Source of the DNA: Nannobrachium achirus
Lineage: Eukaryota > Chordata > Actinopteri > Myctophiformes > Myctophidae
NCBI GenBank assembly: GCA_963921795.1
Contig: OY997642.1
Coordinates: forward strand, 36,055,840-36,119,839
Reading direction: 5' to 3'
Length of the DNA: 64,000 nt
The notes under the pieces are model-generated. The model was not told where the DNA came from, made no database searches, and saw only the letters and a list, made by a program, of their open reading frames with translations. How positions within the stretch are numbered: the first letter of the stretch is position 1; each line of letters starts with the position of its first letter. A program made the translations under genes and the position numbers. Shown piece by piece: positions 4,201-62,232 of this stretch.

Positions 4201-7200
4201 AGCTATGCATTGTCTTTGGTTATTGATTTTGTTAATACCTCTGGAATTACAAATTAAACATTGGCCAAATTGTCAAATATTAGAGGCAGAAATTGTGAAA
4301 ATAGCAACGTGTTATAGAAAATTCCTCAACTCTTAGTGCTCATCAGGGTGGGGTGTCCCCAGTTAAAATATGATTATTTCGGGGGTCACAGCCTGAAATG
4401 GTTGAGAACCACAGGAGTAAGCGACTTGTTATTGAGCTGAATTATTGTTATATAGTCCCGGAAATTGGGGTAAATATTCTGGAAAGGTTTTGGAAATTAA
4501 TTGGTAAAAATGTGTGGGAACCCTGCAAATCTCCTCGTAGGCATCTACAGAGCTGTACCCATGCGTGTGAGCCCCCGGCAGAGCAACGTGAAGTCTGTGT
4601 ACAAGACCCACATCGATGCCATCCACTTCCGCAAGACGGATGAGAAGCGCCTTCATGGCCTGGATGAGGATAACGAACAGAAGCTCTTCACGCAGGACCG
4701 CGTGCAGATCCTGAAGGAGCTGGCAGCCAAGCCGGACGTGTATGAACGCCTCTCCTCTGCCCTAGCGCCCAGCATTTATGAACACGAGGATATCAAGAAG
4801 GTACGTATGAAGGCAGACGCCATCCAAGCATTGGGTATTTGTGTGTACATTATTCATTAGCAATGTTTTAAAATTAATATTTGACCCACAGATCCCCACC
4901 CGAGCAGAGCAATTAAATGTTGGATAGTATATAATTGGTGTTGGTAGTAAAACATTTTCAACTTTTTTTAGGCCTAGGATTATTGACCGCTTTAACAATT
5001 GAAAAATAGCAGATATACAAGCTCACAGCGCTGCGAGCTTGTAGATCTGCTATTTTTAAAAAATCATGATATTTCTTTGCAAGTCTTTGAATATATCTAT
5101 TTAAAAGCGAACATTTGTAACTCAAATATTTGCTTCTGGGTGGTCCCTGGAACAACATATTTTGAGATGGGGGTCCGCGGCCAAATACCTGTAATTTTGG
5201 GGGTCCTTGACATGAAAAAGTTTGAGAAAACATGATTTAGAAGAAGGATTTAGAAGTCGGGTCAAAGATCGGGTCAAAGATATTCAAAGACTTGCGCACA
5301 TTTTCACGATTTTTCAAAAATAGCAGATCTACAAGCTCGCAGCGCGGCACTCGGTGCCGCGCTGTGAGCTTGTATATCTGCTATTTTTCAATAGTTAAAG
5401 CATAAAATAATGGTTAAAGTGGTTAAAATCTAACTCGACTCGGGCGCGTTCCAGGTATTTGAGAGTTAAATTGTGTTCTCCCGTCATTACCTTGTATCAG
5501 GGCATCTTGCTGCAGCTGTTTGGGGGCACTCGCAAGGACTTCAGTCAGACAGGGAGGGGCAACTTCCGTGCCGAGGTGAACATCCTGCTCTGCGGAGACC
5601 CTGGCACCAGCAAATCGCAGCTCCTGCAGTATGTGTTTAACCTGGTCCCACGCGGCCAGTACACATCAGGAAAAGGCTCCAGTGCTGTGGGTCTCACTGC
5701 CTACGTGATGAAGGACCCAGAGACCAAGCAGCTGGTTCTGCAGACCGGCGCGTTGGTGTTGAGTGACAATGGTATCTGCTGCATTGACGAGTTTGACAAG
5801 ATGAGCGACAGCACGCGGTCTGTGCTGCACGAGGTCATGGAGCAACAGACCCTCTCCATTGCTAAGGTGAGCCTGACATGAGCAAGACATGTGCTGAATA
5901 ACTGTGTGGAACATTGAAACCTTGAATGGTCCTGTGGATTATGTTAACCCAAGGTAACTGAATAATAGTGGTCGATTCAATAGTCTGAAAGCAGGAAATT
6001 GGCACCCTCCAGGTTCTCTCAAAGGTTTTTACATTAGATTTGTGATTATTGCCAAAAGAATAAGGTCTAGGGGAAATAAAAGTTAATGACATTTGCATGT
6101 TTGCTGTTTTGTCCGGCAAAGAAAATCGCAGGTGCTCACTTCGCATTAAACATGGCACACATGCATATCTTGTATGGGACTTTCTGTCCATGACATCAGC
6201 TGTGGTCTGTGCGTAATTTCTATGACGTTAGTCTAATGCACTCACAAAGCCAGAGGTAGGAGCGGTTGGCACTGCTCAAATAGACTTTGAACTACACTAG
6301 AGAGTAGAGAAACATGCTCCTCGAAGCACAGGTTCACGTCGATTGGGTGAGCGGTGCCGTAGATTATCCGTACACACACAGAAATTGCATGCAAACTTGT
6401 TCCTGTGTTTGGGGACAACAAACGTTGCCAGTCTATACCACATCACTATCCTATATTCCTTTTGATCTCTGCAGGCTGGGATCATTTGCCAGCTGAATGC
6501 TCGCACTTCTATCTTGGCAGCAGCCAACCCAGTGGAGTCTCAGTGGAACCCCAAGAAGACCACAATTGAAAACATTCAGCTGCCTCACACACTGTTGTCA
6601 AGGTGACGCAGAATTAATATTAACGCATACAAGTTTCAGATGGAGGTGTAGTAGCCAAATAAACATACATTTTGGGGTACTTGACATGAAAATGTTTTAG
6701 AACCACTATTCTAATGGGACATCATTTGCTCTGTGCTTCTGTTGCACACATGTAAAACTGTCATCATTGCTCCAATCAGATTTGATCTCATCTTCCTGAT
6801 GCTGGATCCCCAAGATGAGGCATATGACCGCAGGCTGGCACACCATTTGGTAGCGCTGTACTACCAGAGTGAGGAGCAATTGGATGAGGAGCACCTTGAC
6901 ATGGCTGTGTTGAAGGACTACATTGCTTACGCACGAACATACATACATCCCAGATTGAATGAGGAGGCCGGCCAGGCCCTCATTGAGGTAATAATATAGC
7001 TGCGTGTTTGATGTTGTAATTGGTATCCTAAATCAGTCATCTGGCATTGTTTTCACATAACATGCATAGCATAGTGCAGTGGTTCTCAACCTGTGGGTCG
7101 GGACCCCCAGAGGTGTCTCCAAATTATTTTGGGGGGTCCCCAGATGATTAACTTAGTAAACAAACCAACAAAGTTTAAGTGTATAGAGGGTATATGCACA

Positions 7201-62124: not shown

Positions 62125-62232
62125 TTTGTACTTGGACCGCTATGTTCTGGCTACACCAAATCTCTTTGCCAGAAATAGCCGATCTACAAGCTTACTAGCT
62201 TGATCTGGCTAATGTTACCCCCAGAGTATGAG

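Follow-up and report, generated by a model that had tools for sequence, protein, structure and literature searches.

The window analysed here, which is the whole stretch of 64,000 nucleotides from Nannobrachium achirus, contains 29 open reading frames (ORFs) of at least 110 amino acids. Two ORFs are MCM4-like. ORF 4501-4860 matches the MCM family in Pfam with 21.2 bits, which falls short of the curated cut-off (23.3), and ORF 5411-5881 matches it with 185 bits; compared with the PDB, the latter fits MCM4 chains best (up to 251 bits), followed by MCM7 at 145. A repeat carrying two hairpins, A1, is located between these two ORFs and would thus lie, judging from the sequence, in an intron of MCM4. 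Palindromes are common in the window: there are 77 inverted pairs with arms of at least 25 nt within 300 nt, and among the 25 of these that were listed, few are members of the hairpin family described below. Other inverted repeats include a palindrome at 17547-17807 with 71-nt arms that are 97% complementary, which has a half copy at 10664-10790, and a long, near-perfect inverted repeat at 58890-59127 with 59-nt arms (98%).

The hairpin family was defined by a 25-nt arm profile, which was searched across the window. The search gave 30 matches, 27 of them at 24 bits or more and the others at 19.3, 19.2 and 15.3 bits; these scores are inflated because the profile was trained on the same matches. 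Ten first-order Markov simulations reached 16.2 at most. The match of 19.2 bits is an extra weak arm at 3757-3781. An arm at or above the profile threshold is present at 18 of the 19 loci listed in the initial annotation, so the scattered hairpins that it described are real. Locus 52158 has no arm above the threshold (7.1 bits), and its assignment comes from flank similarity and a reading by eye. Two arms above 14 bits were found at 10 of the 19 loci. One strong and one weak arm are seen at 25365, 40303, 48152 and 53002, and a single recognisable arm at 38392, 56034, 56715 and 62174. Three of these one-armed loci had been recognised as halves, while 56034, listed as a full hairpin, is one-armed and thus a half copy as well. 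The hairpins, with strand where one was assigned, are as follows.

2047-2115 (locus 2053): hairpin, old relative of family A and of element H5; target-site duplication (TSD) not found
5003-5056 (5005): hairpin, left end of A1
5313-5391 (5316): hairpin, right end of A1
25506-25554 (25505): hairpin, left end of A2
25776-25836 (25784): hairpin, right end of A2
38390-38414 (38392), minus strand: half hairpin, group D
42588-42655 (42594): hairpin, group D
47005-47055 (47004): hairpin, left end of A3
47293-47363 (47297): hairpin, right end of A3
48413-48497 (48420): hairpin of element C, both arms with AGCCGATC
52158-52226 (52158): decayed hairpin, group D, under the profile threshold
52996-53067 (53002): worn hairpin; hAT ends with TSD not found
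56029-56053 (56034), plus strand: single arm in H5
56103-56178 (56107): hairpin in H5
56710-56734 (56715), minus strand: half hairpin in H4
62172-62216 (62174): worn hairpin, similar to element C over 45 bp that include the arm

The two best stems were confirmed at the lengths first claimed for them. The stem at 5316 has two DNA mismatches in 35 positions and closes with a 3-nt loop (-59.2 kcal/mol, z -14.3), and the stem at 48420 has 32 positions with one mismatch (-61.7 kcal/mol, z -14.7). The mean arm agreement between different families is 72%, weak arms included. A pattern of 20 bases had no matches in viral contigs, a collection from which host-like records are possibly excluded.

Elements of the hAT superfamily have short terminal inverted repeats that start with CA(G). 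Carriers of this type were sought with a strict scan of the whole window, run without a shuffled control, that required an exact 8-bp TSD and matching ends. Outside the satellite at 60.8-61.3 kb, it returned seven units: 3042-3247, which is free of hairpins, 25198-25906, 46908-47498, 56590-58479, 59845-61728, 46551-48621 and 47716-50035. The last two of these matches look spurious. A relaxed scan covered 11 regions around the loci and found 25198-25906, 46908-47498, 48267-48714 and 55912-56296, and no TSD-bounded element in the other 7 regions. The elements at 48267 and 55912 are not blind finds, because they were spotted by eye before the scan was relaxed. These 4 matches in 11 regions compare with 3 summed over 10 shuffled sets, in a control for which only the first 12 kb were shuffled, by single bases. 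The hairpin-bearing elements, to which A1 is added, are as follows.

4990-5412: A1, family A copy with two hairpins; neither outer hAT ends nor a TSD found
25198-25906: A2, hAT element of 709 bp; ends CAGGGGCGTCAC and CAGGGGTGTCGC, TSD GCTGTCAC
46908-47498: A3, hAT element of 591 bp; ends CAGGGGCGTCAC and CAGGGGTGTTGC, TSD ACCACGCT
48267-48714: C, hAT element of 448 bp; ends CGAGGGTC and CACGGGTC (worn), TSD CTCTACTC, at a partly repetitive site
55912-56296: H5, hAT element of 385 bp; ends CACTAGGTTCTC and CAGTGGTTCTCA with a 1-bp offset, TSD GACTAATC
56590-58479: H4, hAT element of 1890 bp with a large internal palindrome; ends CAGTGTTTCTCAAC and CAGTGGTTCTCACT, TSD CTCTAAAT

Five hairpin-bearing hAT-type elements thus have an exact 8-bp TSD. 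They hold 8 of the 19 loci; for the other 11, no TSD-bounded element of their own was found in the window. The five elements have three or four kinds of ends, the end sequences of carriers being CAGGGGCGTC, CAGGGGTCTTCAAC and CAGTGGTTCTCAAA. Short terminal inverted repeats are clear in A2, A3 and H4, and worn in C and H5. The main carriers are best classed as non-autonomous hAT elements, and the hairpin itself is not classed as a transposon family. They share with other non-autonomous hATs (MITEs) the 8-bp TSD, the short ends of the CA...TG type, a size of 385-709 bp in four of the five elements, and the lack of a detected hAT domain. They differ from them by a long subterminal palindrome, which is common to families with different ends. 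No hAT domain was found in the 12 of the 29 ORFs that were scanned, as would be expected of non-autonomous copies. Within H4, segment 57392-58149 is a large foldback with 257-nt arms that are 95% complementary, and it is related in part to a palindrome at 430-1046. The unit 59845-61728 is a candidate hAT-like unit, with TSD CTCTAGAC and ends CAGTGGTTT, that holds a GTACA-type satellite at 60771-61330.

The position of the hairpin inside these elements is regular. When the 197-bp insert of A2 described below is not counted, each of the eight hairpins, whole or half, is located 70-153 nt from the nearer end of the element; in H5 the distances are 117 nt on the left and 118 nt on the right, and the half hairpin of H4 is 120 nt from the left end. 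Such placement would be expected if the hairpin were kept as a subterminal site of a hAT transposase common to these families. PMC10368747 reports that Hermes requires about 220 terminal bp and has a quasi-palindromic pair of subterminal repeats, and the terminal regions of Tol2 are given as 150-200 bp in PMC8151067. By analogy, hAT transposases in general may need subterminal DNA. The same paper on Hermes deems extra transposase binding within the ends unlikely, and no transposase was found among the ORFs scanned. Furthermore, 2 of the 8 hairpins in TSD-bounded elements have a single arm, and one TSD-bounded hAT, the 206-bp element at 3042-3247, is free of hairpins. We consider a shared transposase site of this kind a fairly unlikely reason for the hairpin having been kept.

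Similarity between loci extends outside the hairpins. Flanks were compared with the hairpins masked; 99.9% of shuffled pairs score below 27, and the highest score in 4000 shuffles is 33. With scores of 34-238, the flanks of family A, 2053 and H5 are similar to each other, as are those of A1, alone in family A, and H4, and those of 42594, 52158 and 38392, which form group D. These scores are to be read against random unshuffled segments of the window, which reach 29 at 99%, 78 at 99.9% and 238 at the highest owing to the many repeats in the window. The flanks of H4 and H5 do not match (score 25). Group D is connected to element C by an 18-bp match only (scores 30-31). With the arm included, locus 62174 has a 45-bp match (89%, E=1e-11) to element C; once the arm is removed, its flank scores 22, which is within the range of shuffled pairs. 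Three further loci, 5005, 5316 and 2053, therefore have flanks in common with TSD-bounded hATs, and four others, 38392, 42594, 52158 and 62174, are weakly tied to a hAT. Beside the worn hairpin at 62174, segment 62127-62180 has a 54-bp similarity (76%) to 20277-20330. Segment 62236-62513 has, by eye, ends TACCGTATTTTCCGGACTATAAGGC in inverted orientation.

By themselves, the remaining four loci, 25365, 40303, 48152 and 53002, have no tie to a hAT. Locus 25365 is inside A2, where it is nested in a smaller insertion. Two of the four loci are located in carriers of another kind. The insertion and the two palindromes are as follows.

25293-25489: 197-bp insertion with CCAC...GTGG ends, inside A2 and missing from the corresponding site of A3; perhaps flanked by a 2-bp AT duplication; hairpin at 25355-25426 (locus 25365)
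40284-40385: gapped imperfect palindrome of 102 bp with the hairpin core (locus 40303); hAT ends with TSD not found
48111-48246: imperfect palindrome of 136 bp, with 65% identity to its own reverse complement and the hairpin at its centre (locus 48152)

The hairpin therefore occurs both behind different hAT ends and outside recognisable hATs, as had been proposed, in five TSD-bounded elements plus other carriers. Why the core is also present in two or more carriers that do not resemble hATs is unexplained.

Such a distribution raises the question whether the palindrome is itself mobile, or exchangeable as a module, and was inserted into, or swapped between, different transposons. This is favoured by the occurrence of the core behind three or more kinds of hAT ends, and in the 136-bp palindrome, the 197-bp insertion and the 102-bp palindrome. 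The paralogs speak against it. The single filled and empty pair seen in the window is A2 compared with its paralog A3, in which the unit that differs is the 197-bp insertion carrying a hairpin, not a bare hairpin. H4 has two paralogs, 7182-7471 and 4229-4412, both on the minus strand. At the same site, H4 has a half hairpin, 7182-7471 has a worn hairpin that was missing from the initial annotation, and 4229-4412 has 12 nt of the outer part of an arm. Since 4229-4412 keeps a piece of one arm, deletion is the simplest account of its lack of a hairpin. The hAT-type element 3042-3247, with an exact TSD GGCTAGTG, is related to element C but shorter, and the hairpin-holding stretch is missing from it. 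No hairpin inserted alone was seen within the window, and around 40303 and 48152 neither a TSD directly at the hairpin ends nor a solo insertion was found by eye. In addition, many of the hAT contexts have common flanks outside the hairpin. A palindrome that moves on its own, as first suggested, is thus not supported by these comparisons, and an inserted or exchanged module is unlikely. We regard as rather unlikely, too, its more specific form, in which one palindromic module moved as an exchangeable cis cassette between otherwise unrelated transposons (several hAT families, the 136-bp foldback and the 197-bp insert), perhaps recruiting a common transposase.

The arms had also been said to change together, with the symmetry of the hairpin possibly maintained by hairpin-mediated repair or arm conversion. 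The observation behind this idea is correct, as AGCCGATC pairs with GATCGGCT at 48420, and AGCCGATC is present on both arms in 1 of the 10 two-armed hairpins. Its generalisation did not hold. In a permutation of the left-right pairing of these 10 hairpins, arm agreement is 20.4 of 25 positions within one hairpin and 20.7 between hairpins (p=0.90), and no excess similarity within hairpins was found in the 4 hairpins outside family A (p=0.59). Within family A, agreement is 24.0 of 25 positions among the outer arms and 22.1 among the inner arms; an outer and an inner arm agree at 21.0 positions when both come from one hairpin and at 21.03 when they come from different hairpins. ATATA is found in 6 of 6 outer arms and ATCTA in 6 of 6 inner arms, so this stem mismatch was inherited uncorrected. 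Departures from the consensus were then counted as events and compared with permuted arms in five sets. Symmetric departures numbered 4 with 4.0 expected in 9 hairpins (p=0.58), 8 with 6.7 expected in the 9 hairpins with 3 outward bases, 2 with 3.9 expected in 8 hairpins, 4 with 4.6 expected in 14 hairpins (p=0.69) and 1 with 1.0 expected in 5 hairpins. No excess of symmetric changes was present in any of the five sets (p 0.34 to 0.91), so that covariation between arms is at chance level. For the stem interiors, p was 0.096. A pair-wise count of site patterns had given 58 within against 14 and 22 cross for all between-family pairs, and 26 against 8 and 7 when each family was represented by a single hairpin (7 in all). 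This count was replaced by the event count because it counts a single event once per pair, and the excess, a candidate sign of arm conversion, vanished once events were counted against permuted arms.

Template switching (quasi-palindrome correction), in which the stem is maintained or re-made and the arms co-evolve, is a mechanism known in general, as PMC8794818 describes. It would explain the comparison of 5316 in family A with 48420 in element C: of 36 arm positions, a count that includes 8 inner ones, 4 show symmetric differences and none a crosswise one. These are the two best stems and were chosen for that, and one or both may have been made symmetrical when their families were founded. 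The hairpins here differ from those described there in that symmetric changes show no general excess. Also against this mechanism, identity within hairpins does not exceed that between hairpins, and the same mismatch is kept in all family A copies. Template switching that maintains or re-makes the stem is very improbable. A family of microRNA-like genes is extremely improbable: the five stretches that were folded form stable stems (-31.8 to -61.7 kcal/mol), and two copies are located between the MCM ORFs on the strand where these are read, but no Rfam match was found at gathering scores, the copies decay, and any young inverted repeat folds likewise.

We conclude that the hairpin is probably an old subterminal palindrome of non-autonomous hATs that was spread by hAT transposition and then decayed. 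A palindrome of about 60-85 bp would have been present in the subterminal region of related, non-coding hAT transposons and would have spread by cut-and-paste transposition of whole elements. The arms of each copy would then have mutated independently, and some hairpins would have been halved or lost, presumably by deletion. The outer ends of the families, which may descend from a common ancestor, would have diverged or been exchanged, leaving the same palindrome behind different ends. hAT transposases might have helped to keep the arm recognisable.

Transposons with comparable structures are known. Tol2 is described in PMC8151067 as a hAT transposon with an internal inverted repeat, Angel. 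By that description, it resembles the elements here in having an internal inverted repeat within a hAT; there the repeat is inside an autonomous element, while here most of the elements are short and the hairpins are 70-153 nt from their ends. The segment 48111-48246, an imperfect palindrome from end to end, resembles the Angel-type foldback MITEs known from fish (Izsvak 1999, as cited in PMC12628747). These MITEs differ from most hairpins here, which look like parts of hATs and not like whole elements.

Our account replaces a possible self-mirroring mobile hairpin with a more ordinary reading, an inherited subterminal palindrome of decayed hATs. That the same arm is found next to hAT ends of different kinds, and also in a small number of other carriers, could reveal which sequence a shared hAT transposase would need beyond the tips of the element.
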